Shown here one piece after another: positions 4,773 to 12,015 of a stretch of DNA of 64,000 bases. The notes under the pieces were generated by a model that was not told the DNA's origin, did not search any database, and saw nothing but the letters and a program-made list of their open reading frames with translations. A program made the position numbers and the translations under genes. Source of the DNA: Pseudomonadota bacterium (GTDB lineage Bacteria > Pseudomonadota > Alphaproteobacteria > UBA8366); the NCBI GenBank assembly GCA_036339585.1, contig JAYZAS010000019.1, positions 1 through 64,000 of the forward strand. Direction: 5' to 3'. How positions within the stretch are numbered: position 1 is the stretch's first letter; every line of letters starts with the position of its first letter.

Positions 4773-5468
4773 TTATTCCTTGATTTGCAAACCCATCGCC
4801 ACCATGTACATTTCTGCAGATTCAACCCTACTTGATTTGGGTTTTGCGTGCCGCACTTTAGCAAAGTCGCGTTTCAATTTTTCAAGTAAGTCACGATCCG
4901 TACCACCTTGGAAAACCTTCGTTACAAACGTGCCCCCCTTAACCAAACGAGGCCTTGCAAAATCATAAGCCGCTTCAGCCAATGACATAATTCTGAGATG
5001 ATCTGTAGAAGCATGCCCTGTACTGGGAGCAGCCATGTCGCTCAATACAACATCCACCTGAGTACCAATCTTTAAGTCTAGCAATGATACCGACTGTTCA
5101 CTAAAGAAGTCAGCCTCTACCATATCTACGCCAACCAAAGGCTCGATCGATACCAGATCGAGCGCTACAACTGATCCGCTGTTTCCTACACGGTCTTTTG
5201 CAATCTGGCTCCACCCTCCCGGCGCTGCTCCCAAGTCAACAACTCGAGCACCCTTTTTCAAGAATTCATATCTGTCATCAAGCTCTAACAATTTAAATGC
5301 GGCCCTACTGCGGTAACCAAGCCGCTGTGCTTCCCTTACAAAAGGATCATTAAATTGCCGGTGTAACCAACGAGTGGATGACGTTTTGCGGCCGCGAGCG
5401 GTCTTTACGCGCACGTGTTTGCCACGACCATAACCACGGGCACCTTTTCCTTGTCCCTTAGACACCAT
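4773..5468 (-). CDS. rlmE: 23S rRNA 2'-O-ribose methyltransferase RlmE (FtsJ/RrmJ)
   Basis: Methylates the 2'-OH of U2552 in the 23S rRNA A-loop in the assembled 50S subunit. The 231-residue product has the SAM motif VDLGAAPGGW (77-86) and the K-D-K-E tetrad: K59 in AAFKLLEL, D144 in VLSDMAAP, K184 in FVTKVFQGG and E219 in SAEMYMVA. It carries an extra N-terminal tail of about 30 residues rich in Lys, Arg and Gly, common in alphaproteobacterial members and likely to bind RNA. Its start overlaps the end of the ppx/gppA gene by 11 bases, so the two are probably translationally coupled. Confidence 0.95.
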   Translation of the reverse strand: MVSKGQGKGARGYGRGKHVRVKTARGRKTSSTRWLHRQFNDPFVREAQRLGYRSRAAFKLLELDDRYEFLKKGARVVDLGAAPGGWSQIAKDRVGNSGSVVALDLVSIEPLVGVDMVEADFFSEQSVSLLDLKIGTQVDVVLSDMAAPSTGHASTDHLRIMSLAEAAYDFARPRLVKGGTFVTKVFQGGTDRDLLEKLKRDFAKVRHAKPKSSRVESAEMYMVAMGLQIKE

Positions 5469-6537
5469 AAATACCCCGTAGCTTATTGCCCGCTTTGTCC
5501 AATGGACCGCAATGTCCTTCGCGATCCGCCTCAGCCATCAATTCTCGCAGTATCCCCTCGCGAATACCTCGGTCAGCCACTCGAAGTTTTCCAACTGGCC
5601 AACGCCTACACATTGCTTCTAGAACGGCACAGCCAACAATCACCAAGTCGGCTCTATTTTTACCGATACAGGGTACTTTTGCTCGTGTGCTGATGTCCAT
5701 GCGACACAGGTCATTGCAGAGTTTACGAATTGCTGCGAAGGTAAGAGTTGAACCATCAACTTGTTTGCGATCATAGTACACTAACCTTTTTTCAATACCA
5801 GCAAGCGTCGTAACTGTTCCGGAGGTGCCAATCATTTGCACCTGCCCAGCGACACAGCGCTCGGCAATCTTATGACAGGCGCAAAATGCAGCAAGCTTTT
5901 CGCCAACCTCATCTATAATCTGTTGGTATAGTTTTGGGTGAAGGCTCCCAGAACCATATTTTTCACACAATGTAACCACTCCAAACGGCACAGAAATTGT
6001 TCCATGTAGTAAATCTTTTTGACTATCGAGCGAAAGCCATGCCACCTGGGTACTACCGCCCCCAATATCGAAAACCACGGCGAAGGGCTCGGGCCCATTA
6101 AGTAGCGAACGACAACCAGAAACGGCAAGCCTAGCCTCTTCTCTCCGATTTATGACTTCGATGGTTATTCCGGTTCGCTCCAAAGCATCATCAAGGAATT
6201 TTTGTGCATTTTTAGCGCGCCTACAGGCTTCAGTCGCGACACTACGAAAGCGACTGACACCATGCCGCCTCATTTTTTTTGCACATATTTCCAGAGCATA
6301 CAAAGTACGTTCTATCGCTCTTTGGTTGAGCTCATTTCCTGACTCAAGTCCTTCACCAAGCCTAACCGGCTTTGAAAAGGAGTCAATCACATGGAACCCA
6401 TTTTGAGTGGGCCTCGCCACCAACAATCGACAATTATTGGTTCCGAGGTCTAGCGCAGCAAAAGTTTGACCCCTTCGACCATACTGCGATTTTAGATACC
6501 CTTCACGCGGTTTTCGCATTGGAGCGTATCTTGCCAT
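5458..6537 (-). CDS. Ppx/GppA family exopolyphosphatase / guanosine pentaphosphatase
   Basis: A cytosolic phosphatase of the actin-like ASKHA fold that trims polyphosphate or (p)ppGpp. Visible motifs are the phosphate-1 loop ALDLGTNNCRLLVA near residue 30 and the second nucleotide loop VFDIGGGSTQVAW near 150. At 359 residues it is the short single-core form, without the HD-type C-terminal extension of E. coli Ppx, so polyphosphatase and pentaphosphatase roles cannot be separated. I chose the ATG at 6537: a purine-rich GGGGGGA lies about five bases upstream, better than the GTG at 6549. It precedes rlmE, with overlapping ends. Confidence 0.9.
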   Translation of the reverse strand: MARYAPMRKPREGYLKSQYGRRGQTFAALDLGTNNCRLLVARPTQNGFHVIDSFSKPVRLGEGLESGNELNQRAIERTLYALEICAKKMRRHGVSRFRSVATEACRRAKNAQKFLDDALERTGITIEVINRREEARLAVSGCRSLLNGPEPFAVVFDIGGGSTQVAWLSLDSQKDLLHGTISVPFGVVTLCEKYGSGSLHPKLYQQIIDEVGEKLAAFCACHKIAERCVAGQVQMIGTSGTVTTLAGIEKRLVYYDRKQVDGSTLTFAAIRKLCNDLCRMDISTRAKVPCIGKNRADLVIVGCAVLEAMCRRWPVGKLRVADRGIREGILRELMAEADREGHCGPLDKAGNKLRGIYGV

Positions 6538-6792
6538 AAATCCCCCCACCGAGATATTAACGTCTGGTAGTACTTAAAACATTTGCTGTTATTTTATCTT
6601 AAATGATTTGCATTTCCCTAAAACTTTGTGAAACCAAAAGTTTCCCTTGAGCAATCAATATCGGATTTCGTACTGATTAACATTCCATGTTTTTTGATTT
6701 CACTAATTTATTATTGTTGTCGCGCTAGTTGGTTTTAACGCTTTTGAAAAACCCATAATTTCCAATTTTTTCGACGCATTAAGAAAAATAGA

Positions 6793-7483
6793 ATAACTGA
6801 GCCACCCGTCTTTGACGATAACTTTCGATGGCGTTCACATGAATTGTTAACTTATCGGCGAGACGGCAAGGAATTCAGCATCTAACCCCTACGACTTTGA
6901 ATAGCTGAAAATTAATTTCTGCAGCTTGTCTTGCCCCGTCGGTCGGTTTGAGTGAATCATGGCAGTTGGTGATTGTCGCAGATCCCGACCGAAGGTCAGG
7001 GTTGCGCCGTAATTTTGAGGAAGATAATAACGACTCGCTAAATAGTTATGCCGGTGATAAGGCAAAACTATGTGCTAAGCTGAAACTTTCAGGCATGAGC
7101 ACAGCGCCTCTCCAAATAGCAGTATTCGCAAATCAGCATACAAGACTAGGGCATGGCCTTGAGCCCAGGCGACGCCATTAACAGTGGCATACTCTTTTGC
7201 CACTGTTAATCAAACTATTTAGATCACTGCGAGGTCTGAAGGACTTGGTTTGGGTTGGGTGTCGATCCTTGACAAGGCTCTCGTTAATAAGGATTTGGAG
7301 GTTTCAGAAGATGGTCGTTCATTGCCTATCTGTGCATTGGCTTGCCGATGGCGGGCTCATCTCCTCCATCGCTGGAATATTCTAAAGCGGACGAAGGAGA
7401 AAGGTACCAAGCTTTATTTTTCGGGGATAGCTTTAATGAAGGAATAAGAAAGAACATGGTTATCGGCCTAGCATTTTTAACTT
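6793..7483 (+). pseudogene. bluB: Decayed bluB (5,6-dimethylbenzimidazole synthase)
   Basis: BluB makes dimethylbenzimidazole, the lower ligand of vitamin B12, from FMNH2. Here its homology runs collinearly through three frames. Frame one, from an ATA at 6793 (probably a lost ATG), reads EPPVFDDNF then LLTYRRDGKEF, followed by in-frame stops. Frame two, around 6910-7181, reads APSVGLSESWQLVIV, RRNFEEDN and APLQIAVFA then TRLGHGL. Frame three, from 7187, reads AYSFATVNQTI, a stop where Trp is expected, then EGLGLGWVSILD. Frame one resumes near 7315 with SFIAYLCIGLPM. At least three frameshifts and several stops rule out a functional enzyme. The tail after about 7400 is unrecognisable. The flanking stretches 6550-6792 and 7484-7710 hold no gene I can see. 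Confidence 0.88.
7177..7210. repeat. 13-bp perfect inverted repeat inside the bluB pseudogene
   Basis: ATTAACAGTGGCA (7177-7189) and its exact reverse complement (7198-7210) flank an 8-base spacer. The right arm fits the surviving bluB reading (SFATVNQ), while the left arm replaces sequence expected to encode the conserved MPETLRY region. No run of T follows, so it does not look like a terminator, and no IS sequence accompanies it. Confidence 0.75.
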
Positions 7484-7710
7484 AACAAGAGCCAATGATT
7501 TTCCAGTGATATTCAACACCACGCCTTATTTAATGCTCGCTGGGCATTAAAATTCTTCCCCAAAGTGCGTCACAAGTAGTAACTACCCCTTACCGTATCA
7601 GTCGGCGGAGATAAAGATTGAATGTCTTAAACCGATCGCCCATGGAAAATACAAGATTAAAGATTTTATAAAATGTTAAAGGTAAGTCACTAACAATTAA
7701 AGAGAGTCAA

Positions 7711-8688
7711 ATGGCAATTGATACACACGCCCATTTTATACCGCAGGCAATGCTTGAGGACCTTCGTAATCGGATTTCTGATTTCCCTAATATAGATATG
7801 ATCGAACAAGAAGGCAGTTTCCGGCTCGCTTTCGCCGGCGGGAGCCCAAGCCGCCCAATAATGGCGCGACTGCGCGAGATTGAAAACCGCAATACCTGGA
7901 TGAAACAAAATGGAATAGATCTTCAAATTTCTGGGGGTTGGGTCGATGCGTTTGGTAACCAATTACCTGCTGATGAAGGAGCAGAGTGGGCTCGATATTG
8001 TAACAAATGGCTGATCAAGGCATGCGCAGATGATTCTGGTGTCATACCGCTAGGTATCCTACCAACGCAAAGTGGTAAACACTCGGCAGAAGTAATGCAA
8101 GAGGCATTAAATGATGGGTTTAAGGGATTCATGATTGGGGCTCAAACGAGGGGTGTTGGGGGTACCCTGGATGATCCTGATCTCGATCCTTTTTGGGCAA
8201 AAGCCCATGAAACAAGTACCACTATCTTGGTGCATCCCGTTTTTGACGCTTCGGACCCTCGAGTTCGAGATTTCGATATGGTTAATGCCGTGTCAAGAAT
8301 CAATGATCAGACAACTGCCCTAGCACGAATTCTATTTACTGGTCATTTAACACGGTATTCTGGGGCAAAAGTCATCGCTTCAACAGGCGGTGCGGCATTG
8401 CCGTATGCACTTGGTAGGTTGATTCGAAATTTTAAAGCTCACCCAGGTAAATATTCAGATCCAAGGGAGGGATTTTCGCAACTTTATTTTGACAGCATAG
8501 TTTTCGAGCCAGAAGTTTTAGATTTTCTTGTTGCTCGGGTCGGGGCTGAGAGAGTGCTACTTGGCTCGGATTGGCCATTTCCCATTGGAGATTTAGAGCC
8601 ATGTGAAGTTGTAAAAAAATCATCATTGAGCTCAAACAACAAAGCACGGATTCTAGAAACAAATGCACAAGCTTTATTCGGACTTTAA
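7711..8688 (+). CDS. Amidohydrolase 2 family (ACMSD-like) metal-dependent hydrolase/decarboxylase
   Basis: A 325-residue TIM-barrel protein of the amidohydrolase-2 family, which includes aminocarboxymuconate semialdehyde decarboxylase (ACMSD) and related benzoate decarboxylases. The metal ligands H6 and H8 (DTHAHF), H175 (LVHPVF) and D287 (LGSDWPFP) are present. The position of the ACMSD catalytic histidine (usual motif AHGGG) reads STGGA, with T225, so the enzyme may use altered chemistry or be impaired. A purine-rich AAAGAGAG precedes the ATG. It is the first intact gene of a plus-strand group with an enolase-like enzyme, a dioxygenase and a dehydrogenase, which suggests breakdown of an acidic or aromatic compound. 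The substrate is unknown. Confidence 0.83.
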   Translation: MAIDTHAHFIPQAMLEDLRNRISDFPNIDMIEQEGSFRLAFAGGSPSRPIMARLREIENRNTWMKQNGIDLQISGGWVDAFGNQLPADEGAEWARYCNKWLIKACADDSGVIPLGILPTQSGKHSAEVMQEALNDGFKGFMIGAQTRGVGGTLDDPDLDPFWAKAHETSTTILVHPVFDASDPRVRDFDMVNAVSRINDQTTALARILFTGHLTRYSGAKVIASTGGAALPYALGRLIRNFKAHPGKYSDPREGFSQLYFDSIVFEPEVLDFLVARVGAERVLLGSDWPFPIGDLEPCEVVKKSSLSSNNKARILETNAQALFGL

Positions 8689-8916
8689 CATTCTCGGAAA
8701 ACTACTTGTCAGATTTTTCTTAGACACAAGTGCTTACTCGGGTGCCATATCAACAATCTCAAAATCCTTATTTACTAAAATGCGCCGCAAACAGATTGAG
8801 ATAAAGGCCCGCGATAGTAATTACCATCCAGTGATAAAACTTTTTCAGCATTACAAAGTTCGGTGCGCTCAGCGCCACCACGGTCTTATTCAATTCAGTG
8901 CGCCTCGAGATGTTCA

Positions 8917-10017
8917 ATGTTGAAGGTGACCAGTGCCCGAGTTCATATCATACCCGTAAATCACCGCGGCAATTGGGTGCTAGTAGAGATCGAGAGCGCC
9001 AATCACCACAGGGGCTGGGGGGAAGCATCGGATAGCAAAAATGACAGAGCTTGCATTGAAGAAATTAAGCGCTACATCGAAAATTTAAAAGATAAAGATA
9101 TCGATCCCATTGCTGCGGCTGATTCATTAATACATGGCGTGCCAAATAAGCGCTTTTTGCGAACAGCACCGAGCGCAGTGGCACAAGCTCTATATGATCT
9201 TTCTTGTCGCAACGAAGGGATCTCTGTAGCCGATAAGCTTTCGCAAGGGCATAAGGTGCCAAACACTGTTAAATTCTACTGTAACATTAATCGAAAAAGT
9301 GCCAGTCGGGCACCTGCCAGTATCGCGGCTGCAGGTTGTGAAGCATTAAAGGCAGGTTGCACCAACATAAAAATAGCACCATTCGACGAAGTCTCTCCAC
9401 AAAATAATCCAACTGAGGTGAAAAATCTTCTAGGACCCGGCGTTGCGAGATTACGGGCCCTTCGCGATGCCGTTGGACCCCAAACACAACTGATGATTGA
9501 TTGTCATTGGCGTTTTACAAAAGAAACAGCACCAATGCTTGCCGCAATTTGTAATGATCTAGAAATTACATGGATCGAAGATCCTCTCGACATCTGGGAT
9601 AAGTCTACATGTGATGAGCTGCGAAACATTACAGGCGGACGCATTTGTGGCGGCGAGAATTTTTATACTTTCAACGAATTAGAAAACCTAGCAAGATCAG
9701 GTTGCATTGATGTTCTGATTGCTGACGTAAAATTTACCGGGGGCCCCGGGAAATTGGATGAGGTTTGCAAAATGGCTGCCACTCATGGCCTCACATTTGC
9801 TCCACACAATCCATCTGGCCCTATTTGTACTGCGGCAAGTGCCCAAGTCACCGCCGCCAACCACAATGCTGAAATACTTGAATATGCCTTTGGCGAAGTT
9901 CCTTGGCGACTGGCATTCGCAAAAGGAGAGTATCTGTTGGGTACTGAAATTGCTGTAAAGGGACCTGGGCTAGGAATCGACATCGATTTTTATTCTCAGG
10001 GGAAACCGGCAGACTAG
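8917..10017 (+). CDS. Enolase superfamily enzyme (mandelate racemase group, acid-sugar dehydratase-like)
   Basis: A 366-residue member of the enolase superfamily, whose members abstract the proton next to a carboxylate. Metal ligands are D195 (MIDCHW), E221 (WIEDPLD) and E247 (GGENFY). The Asp-His dyad is D270 (IADVKF) and H297 in FAPHNPSGP, a loop of the H-x-P-x-GP type seen in acid-sugar dehydratases such as galactonate dehydratase. With the ATG at 8917 these positions carry the same numbers as in Pseudomonas putida mandelate racemase, supporting that start over the one at 8863. The usual KxK motif reads K152-I-A, so the second lysine is lost; His-dependent dehydration is more likely than racemisation. 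The substrate is unknown. Confidence 0.85.
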   Translation: MLKVTSARVHIIPVNHRGNWVLVEIESANHHRGWGEASDSKNDRACIEEIKRYIENLKDKDIDPIAAADSLIHGVPNKRFLRTAPSAVAQALYDLSCRNEGISVADKLSQGHKVPNTVKFYCNINRKSASRAPASIAAAGCEALKAGCTNIKIAPFDEVSPQNNPTEVKNLLGPGVARLRALRDAVGPQTQLMIDCHWRFTKETAPMLAAICNDLEITWIEDPLDIWDKSTCDELRNITGGRICGGENFYTFNELENLARSGCIDVLIADVKFTGGPGKLDEVCKMAATHGLTFAPHNPSGPICTAASAQVTAANHNAEILEYAFGEVPWRLAFAKGEYLLGTEIAVKGPGLGIDIDFYSQGKPAD

Positions 10018-10044
10018 ACGATTCCTGATATTCTTTGCTAGACA

Positions 10045-10057
10045 ATAACCTGAGGTT
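10045..10057. promoter_or_regulatory. Palindrome upstream of the dioxygenase gene, possible operator
   Basis: TAACCTGAGGTTA has six-base arms around one central base. It lies in the 157-base gap between the enolase-like gene and the TauD-type gene, 118 bases before the latter's start. The shape suits a dimeric regulator, but no regulator gene lies nearby and no second copy was noticed. Confidence 0.25.
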
Positions 10058-10174
10058 AATAGTGCAAGTTTTGGCGATAAGAAAAGTTCTTATTCCAAAA
10101 AAACGTCAAAGTTACTTTAGGGGCTTGTGCTGTTTTGCATTTACTCACTCTAATATTTATAGGGGCAAAAGTTT

Positions 10175-11032
10175 ATGACTATGTCAATCAAACCTCTTCG
10201 CAACGGATTTGCGTCAGAAGTTACCGGACTAGATCTGCGTGTTAACCAAGAAGAAGAAATAAGAGCCGCTCTTTACCAAGCCTTCGCGGAACGCTCCGTC
10301 TTGGTAATAAGGAACCAAAAATTGGAACCCCCGGAGTTTCTAGATTGTTCGCGCATATTTGGTAATCCGATGATGCAAACCTTAGAACAGTTCCGCATTC
10401 CGGACTGCCCACTTGTTGGTTTCATCTCGAGTCGGGACAAAGGTTCAAATGGTAAAGTAATAACGAGGGGCAGCAACTGGCACACCGATCATTCGCATAC
10501 AATCCAGCCTCCAAAAGCTACTATGCTCCATGCCATTACCCTACCTAACCACGGAGGCGATACCCAATTTTGCTCTATGCACCTCATGTATGACGCGCTA
10601 TCCGAAAAATTGAAAAAGCAAATTGATAGGATACACTGTCTACACATATGGATGAGTCGTCGGTGTCCACGCCCTATGGCTCCAGCGGAGGAGGGCTTTG
10701 ATCCACGTGTTTGGCACCCGTTAGTTCGAGTGAACCCAGATACAAATCGAAAAGCAATCTACATCAACACGGCTAGAATAGATGACTTCCAAGGCATTGA
10801 TATGGAGGATGGATTTGAACTTCTCGATGAATTCATGAAAATGGCCGATCAAGCAGAGTTTGAATATCGGCATAAATGGGAAGACGGTGATATCGTTATT
10901 TGGGATAATCGTTCAGTCTTACACCAGGCCAATGGCGATTATGGTGACGAATATCGTCACCTGTATCGTATCATAATCGAAGGAGAGCCGGTGTTAAATG
11001 CAAATGGCGAACAGATGGAATCAGCGGCATGA
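10175..11032 (+). CDS. TauD/TfdA-family Fe(II)/2-oxoglutarate dioxygenase
   Basis: A 285-residue non-haem iron dioxygenase coupling 2-oxoglutarate decarboxylation to substrate hydroxylation. The iron triad is H103-x-D105 (NWHTDHS) and H250 (SVLHQANGDY); R261 and R265 fit the 2-oxoglutarate carboxylate site, and T130 in GGDTQF is the conserved co-substrate contact. Length and order match TauD and TfdA. The last bases overlap the next gene's start in ATGA, so the two are translationally coupled and probably act in one pathway. The substrate (taurine, an aryloxyacetate or another acid) cannot be told; no sulfonate transport genes are adjacent. Confidence 0.9.
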   Translation: MTMSIKPLRNGFASEVTGLDLRVNQEEEIRAALYQAFAERSVLVIRNQKLEPPEFLDCSRIFGNPMMQTLEQFRIPDCPLVGFISSRDKGSNGKVITRGSNWHTDHSHTIQPPKATMLHAITLPNHGGDTQFCSMHLMYDALSEKLKKQIDRIHCLHIWMSRRCPRPMAPAEEGFDPRVWHPLVRVNPDTNRKAIYINTARIDDFQGIDMEDGFELLDEFMKMADQAEFEYRHKWEDGDIVIWDNRSVLHQANGDYGDEYRHLYRIIIEGEPVLNANGEQMESAA

Positions 11033-12015
11033 CCCGGCACAAGATTGCCATTTTAGACGTATGGGCCGAAGCTGTACGAGATCAAACTCGCGCTGTTGCA
11101 CCAGAAAATTTCGAGTTACACTTCGCCGAAAGCTACGATGAAGATCATCAAATTGAGATAGCTCAAATATGCGATTTCATTGTTTGTGGAACTGCACCGA
11201 TTTCCCGACGTTTGTTGGATGCGGCACCCAACGTTAAATTTATCCAGAAATGGGGCATAGGTTTTGATAAAGTGGACCTTGACGCCATACGTGACCACGG
11301 TCTTGGCCTTTGCAATACAGCCGGAGCGAATAGTTCAGTTGTCGCAGAACATACAGTCTTATTGATTCTGGCGGTTTATCGCCACCTCCTTGAAATTGAC
11401 GCAAGATTAAGGAATGGGGAATGGTTAGATATCAAAATCATGCTAAGAAATAATGCGTTGCAGATGCGCGGGAAAACCATCGGAATTTTGGGGTTCGGGA
11501 ATATTGGGCGGTCAGTAGCACAACGATTGATCGGTTTTGAAACAAATGTAATCTACAATGACATAACACGAGCAACCGAGGAAATAGAACGTAAATTTCA
11601 AGCAAGCTATGTCAGCTTGGAACACCTTTTTAAGAAATCTGACATATTAACAATACATACGCCTTTGGATGAATCGACGCGCAACATAGTTGACGCCAAC
11701 GCTATCAACCAAATGAAAGATACAGCAATTATCATTAATTGTGCTCGAGGTGGTGTATTGAATGAAAAGGCACTTTTTAACGCGATTAAGGCAGGACGTA
11801 TTCGCGGGGCCGGAATTGACGTTTGGGAGCCTGAACCTACCGAGCCTGAAAACCCACTCTTTTCATTAGATAAGGTTGTTGTTACGCCGCATGCAGCCGG
11901 ATCAGCATTCGATAACGTCGGCAATGTTTCCAAACACTGTTTTAAAAATATTCAGCTATTTTTGGATGGTAAAGCATTGCCGGAGGCCGACGTCATCATT
12001 CCGATACCAGCGTGA
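11029..12015 (+). CDS. D-isomer-specific 2-hydroxyacid dehydrogenase
   Basis: A 328-residue NAD(P)-dependent dehydrogenase that interconverts a 2-hydroxy acid and a 2-oxo acid. The Rossmann motif GILGFGNIG ends at residue 160; the substrate arginine R240 (NCARGGVLNE), E267 (GIDVWEPEP) and catalytic H288 (TPHAAGS) form the usual triad. It resembles phosphoglycerate dehydrogenase-like enzymes without the C-terminal ACT domain, so a catabolic or glyoxylate/hydroxypyruvate reductase role is more likely than serine synthesis. It overlaps the dioxygenase gene by four bases. Its downstream neighbour, a CoA-transferase, is a pseudogene. Confidence 0.9.
   Translation: MTRHKIAILDVWAEAVRDQTRAVAPENFELHFAESYDEDHQIEIAQICDFIVCGTAPISRRLLDAAPNVKFIQKWGIGFDKVDLDAIRDHGLGLCNTAGANSSVVAEHTVLLILAVYRHLLEIDARLRNGEWLDIKIMLRNNALQMRGKTIGILGFGNIGRSVAQRLIGFETNVIYNDITRATEEIERKFQASYVSLEHLFKKSDILTIHTPLDESTRNIVDANAINQMKDTAIIINCARGGVLNEKALFNAIKAGRIRGAGIDVWEPEPTEPENPLFSLDKVVVTPHAAGSAFDNVGNVSKHCFKNIQLFLDGKALPEADVIIPIPA

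Follow-up and report, generated by a model that had tools for sequence, protein, structure and literature searches.

The window, by which we mean the whole stretch of 64,000 nucleotides analysed, carries a true bluB pseudogene that cannot encode an enzyme. BluB is the aerobic, flavin-destroying enzyme that makes 5,6-dimethylbenzimidazole (DMB), the lower ligand of vitamin B12. We propose, with a probability of roughly 0.7, that the bacterium is a lower-ligand auxotroph, which would have lost DMB synthesis, would still make the corrin ring and would attach to it DMB taken from the environment. In what follows, G000 is the genome of the window, G001 and G002 belong to the same genus (g1), G003 and G004 to a sister genus (g2), and G005 and G006 (g3) to the same family.

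The bluB pseudogene

Two segments of the window, each in a different frame, match the BluB model TIGR02476: 6906-7163 (64.8 bits) and 7166-7318 (36.3 bits). A tblastn search with the intact G002 BluB returned four collinear pieces in three frames, covering residues 1-202 with a combined E of 5e-61. Both searches bear out the sequence-only reading, which had described collinear BluB homology over three frames. No single open frame at this site exceeds the curated TIGR02476 cut-off of 150 bits, and the two matching pieces contain stops. Lesions were positioned by a codon-by-codon alignment of the window to the G002 bluB (Table 1) and amount to a lost start codon, three in-frame stops and four single-base frameshifts; the earlier description of a lost start, several stops and at least three frameshifts was therefore correct. 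The extent first given to the relic, 6793-7483, holds for its start, but the codon alignment ends some 50 bases before the proposed end. No ORF-free gap in the window is larger than the one that holds the relic (6550-7710), and ORFs of at least 100 amino acids cover 89% of the whole. Reading through the lesions recovers the motifs RRDGKEF and GWVSIL, in separate frames, with the Asp of RRDVR and the Ser of GWVS retained; we take these conserved BluB residues to be D32 and S167 of S. meliloti. In the BluB tree, the relic groups with the G002 protein with a support of 100/99.

Table 1. Features of the bluB locus in the window (positions are those of the window)
Feature	Position	Strand	Evidence
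Presumed Ppx/GppA exopolyphosphatase-like gene, upstream syntenic marker	5458..6549	-	orthologues flank the site in G001 and G002
bluB pseudogene (5,6-dimethylbenzimidazole synthase remnant)	6793..7430	+	tblastn pieces, codon map
Former start codon, reads ATA	6793..6795	+	codon map; ATG in G002 and in the G001 remnant
Stretch absent from the G001 locus, ends approximate	6838..7499	+	
In-frame stop TAA	6883..6885	+	codon map
In-frame stop TGA	6898..6900	+	codon map
Single-base frameshift	6908..6909	+	codon map
Single-base frameshift	7164..7165	+	codon map
In-frame stop TAG	7220..7222	+	tblastn and codon map
Single-base frameshift	7311..7312	+	codon map
Single-base frameshift	7386..7387	+	codon map
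Amidohydro_2 amidohydrolase, downstream syntenic marker	7711..8688	+	

Staged loss within the genus

The sequence-only reading had suggested a comparison with close relatives, and this yielded an intact copy at the same locus. In G002 (contig CAJWLM010000006.1, from an uncultured Rhodospirillaceae MAG), bluB is intact between the same two neighbours, in the order ppx–bluB–amidohydrolase; its product scores 252 bits on TIGR02476, above the equivalog cut-off, and has the S. meliloti BluB (PDB 2isj) as its nearest solved structure. The upstream neighbour is presumably exopolyphosphatase-like, a name that comes from recognising its sequence rather than from a family search. In G001 (PBCW01000045.1, Rhodospirillaceae MAG SP3966), the deletion is nearly complete: the flanks are directly joined inside one contig, and only the first 15 or so codons of bluB are left. 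These include the start codon, so that the loss of the start is private to G000. Since the G001 deletion removed the informative sites, the locus is compatible with either one or two inactivations in G000 and G001. Within one genus and at one locus, bluB is thus found intact, decaying and deleted. Beyond the amidohydrolase, the window carries what is probably a small catabolic cluster (8863-12015), with genes for enolase-superfamily, TauD-type dioxygenase and 2-hydroxyacid dehydrogenase proteins.

The mode of sequence change was followed by polarising the bluB differences with the gene of G009; since this outgroup is distant, the comparison lends support but does not date the loss. On the G000 branch, changes are spread evenly over the codon positions (17/21/21; 43 nonsynonymous and 16 synonymous), as expected for a dead gene, compared with 5/7/16 on the G002 branch (13 nonsynonymous and 15 synonymous). 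The two branches differ (Fisher p = 0.03).

Loss in the sister genus

In G003 and G004, bluB survives at a different locus as relics interrupted by several stops. Both relics show a common frame disruption near codon 40 (10 versus 13 bases, instead of a multiple of three), each also has private lesions, and the differences between them are neutral with respect to codon position (26/28/31). The BluB tree sets them apart on a branch of their own, with weak support for its placement. Because the sister genus has its own relics, at a different locus and on a separate branch, bluB was lost at least twice in this family. The bluB of G008 (C332, next to cobS) is also frameshifted, but a run of 334 N (L049:3564-3897) lies inside the locus and it was not counted as a loss. 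As regards gene order, the cob cluster of G009 (C77, L050:9322-11823) has bluB at its head, adjoining cobS and cobT; the gene stands beside ppx in g1 and beside other genes in g2, and has thus moved out of the cluster in those genera where it was subsequently lost.

A retained and constrained cobamide pathway

NCBIfam models identified in G000 CobT, CbiB, CobB, CobQ, CobU, CobD (threonine-phosphate decarboxylase), CobO, CobS and CobN, together with CobM, CobJ, CobI, CbiE/CbiT (CobL), CbiD, CobK and a SUMT; CobH matches the precorrin-8X methylmutase models slightly below their curated cut-offs. These corrin-ring genes and the nucleotide-loop genes cobU, cobT, cobS, cbiB and cobD are all intact, and one cobalamin riboswitch heads the cobU-cobW-cobN-cobO-cobQ cluster. 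The pathway is of the aerobic (CobN) type, with CbiD and a CbiG-CobJ fusion, and no CobF was identified in the cluster at L173:6362-14152. The demand for a cobamide probably persists: an intact MetH is present (2085 bits), no match to MetE was found in G000, G001, G003 or G004, and methionine synthesis therefore appears to need a cobamide, which makes the latter probably essential to the cell. The genome thus holds intact cobU and cobT and a B12-dependent enzyme, all of which the sequence-only reading had named as checks.

Selection on these genes was estimated between genomes that both lack bluB. For G000 and G001, dN/dS is 0.145 for cobT, 0.23 for cobS, 0.176 for cobU, 0.17 for cbiB and 0.20 for cobB, and it ranges from 0.12 to 0.40 for the ring methyltransferases. 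For G003 and G004, cobT gives 0.146 over the same interval as the neutral drift of bluB. We regard this constraint as the clearest evidence that the pathway is still used without BluB. CobT is needed for the activation of a free base, and not if alpha-ribazole itself is imported; that CobT is still constrained would therefore point to free DMB, or to another base, rather than alpha-ribazole as the molecule likely to be traded.

Origin of the lower ligand

With bluB dead, this marine bacterium would be left without DMB synthesis of its own. The corrin ring would still be built, CobT and CobS would activate and attach the lower ligand, and cobalamin, the presumed product, would most likely be completed with DMB taken up from the environment, probably supplied by neighbours. 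The earlier suggestion that the lineage no longer makes its own ligand is supported by the dead gene, by the lack of any other protein above the BluB cut-off in the genome and by the nitroreductases described below. Of the three outcomes then envisaged (salvage of the ligand, use of another base, or loss of B12 synthesis), salvage is the most likely, and the last is contradicted by the intact ring and loop genes and by the purifying selection on them among bluB-less genomes. Complete cobamide import could provide an alternative to DMB salvage.

The ability of CobT to activate other bases counts against DMB salvage, and the attachment of adenine or of another benzimidazole, giving a different cobamide such as pseudocobalamin, is the least improbable of the other explanations, although we consider it unlikely. 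It predicts equally well the loss of bluB with the retention of cobT, and cyanobacteria of the same habitat make pseudocobalamin (PMC9296465). The G000 CobT, however, is 89% identical to that of the bluB-bearing G002, with a dN/dS of 0.11 and no sign of a change in constraint, and it passes the equivalog cut-off of the DMB-type cobT model; a wide preference for DMB is moreover reported for CobT homologues, going by the title of a work among the references of PMC6461909.

It is more doubtful still that the whole pathway is dying, with bluB first to go, the other cob genes to follow and complete B12 imported. Such an outcome can be imagined from G005 and G006, which lack bluB, show no more than a weak cobT-like match and carry riboswitches that do not adjoin cob genes, but every tested cob gene of G000 has an open frame, dN/dS between bluB-less genomes is about 0.12-0.4, and the sister-genus cobT stayed constrained while bluB drifted. 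In g3, the cobalamin riboswitches in question (L178, L179, L180 and L181) adjoin no recognisable cob genes, and a full-length MetE gene lies near one of those of G006.

We give a still lower probability to a non-orthologous enzyme now making DMB, for example the NADPH nitro/flavin-reductase (NfsA)-type nitroreductase encoded behind cobQ. If true, such a replacement would explain repeated losses of bluB alongside continued selection on cobT. A nitroreductase-fold protein is indeed encoded directly after cobQ in both genera with decaying bluB, g1 and g2, and is missing from the cob operon of G009, which itself contains bluB. On the other hand, the same gene occurs in G002 beside an intact bluB, its product scores 35 bits to BluB versus 141 to NfsA, and its nearest solved relatives, YcnD and NfrA, are NADPH nitro/flavin reductases. 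In the TIGR02476 search of the G000 genome, which addressed the possibility of a second bluB raised by the sequence-only reading, no other protein exceeded the BluB cut-off. In an alignment of five BluBs and three G000 nitroreductases (C25, C5 and the protein encoded behind cobQ), none of the three had the Asp of RRDVR; C25 and C5 are weak matches to the BluB model, also present in G002, and were rejected as substitutes. The gene set that directly follows cobQ in g1 and g2 (L104:3283-8780 on C1 of G000; L106, L111 and L177) comprises the NfsA/FRP-type nitroreductase, an SDR, a carboxyltransferase and an ADP-forming acyl-CoA synthetase; it overlaps or nearly overlaps cobQ and is absent from the G009 cob cluster.

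Finally, it is very unlikely that the gene is intact and that its lesions are sequencing or assembly errors, for although every frameshift involves a single base, the three stops and the lost start arose by substitution, seven separate lesions accompany the lost start, the substitutions are evenly and neutrally spread across codon positions, G001 is deleted at the same place and the neighbouring ORFs are intact.

Prevalence and comparison with known systems

Among 385 evenly sampled Alphaproteobacteria, 78 genomes had bluB (E <= 1e-30), 179 had cobT (E <= 1e-50) and 76 had both. More than half of the cobT-bearing genomes (103 of 179) gave no bluB match, so that cobT without bluB is a common, ordinary state in this class. 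Internal stops were seen in none of the sampled bluB genes at E <= 1e-30, a threshold at which a relic as worn as that of the window would escape listing. Ligand-only gaps are usually inferred from the absence of a gene, which an assembly gap can mimic; here the loss is seen directly. A constrained cobT combined with a staged and repeated loss of bluB would make ligand dependence an evolved, stable state and not a gap in annotation. Among the literature titles and abstracts listed, we found no report of a bluB pseudogene or of bluB loss in this lineage.

DMB and alpha-ribazole are known to be exchanged in marine settings (PMC9296465), and nitrifiers release DMB (PMC11428151). The relic is a clear descendant of BluB as known from S. 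meliloti (TIGR02476; PDB 2isj), but it differs from it in being unable to encode the enzyme. The precursor salvagers of Shelton et al. (PMC6461909) resemble G000 in having an incomplete cobamide pathway and a presumed salvage of precursors; their classes are those of tetrapyrrole precursor and cobinamide salvagers, however, and the ligand-only gap of G000 falls outside both. In that survey, bluB serves chiefly to mark the production of cobalamin (PMC6461909).

A close parallel to G000 is a marine Roseovarius, likewise an alphaproteobacterium with corrin-ring synthesis, without lower-ligand synthesis and with an expected dependence on the ligand of others. Wienhausen et al. (Nature, 2024, doi 10.1038/s41586-024-07396-y, cited in PMC11428151) reportedly showed in culture that this ligand auxotroph takes part in cross-feeding of the lower ligand with Colwellia. 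G000 differs from it in belonging to another order-level group and in being known from its genome alone rather than from culture physiology, and also in that the dead gene is still visible and its loss is staged among relatives. The kind of dependency is already known in the ocean; G000 adds a new, well-staged instance of it, whose interest lies in showing repeated loss directly while constraint is retained.
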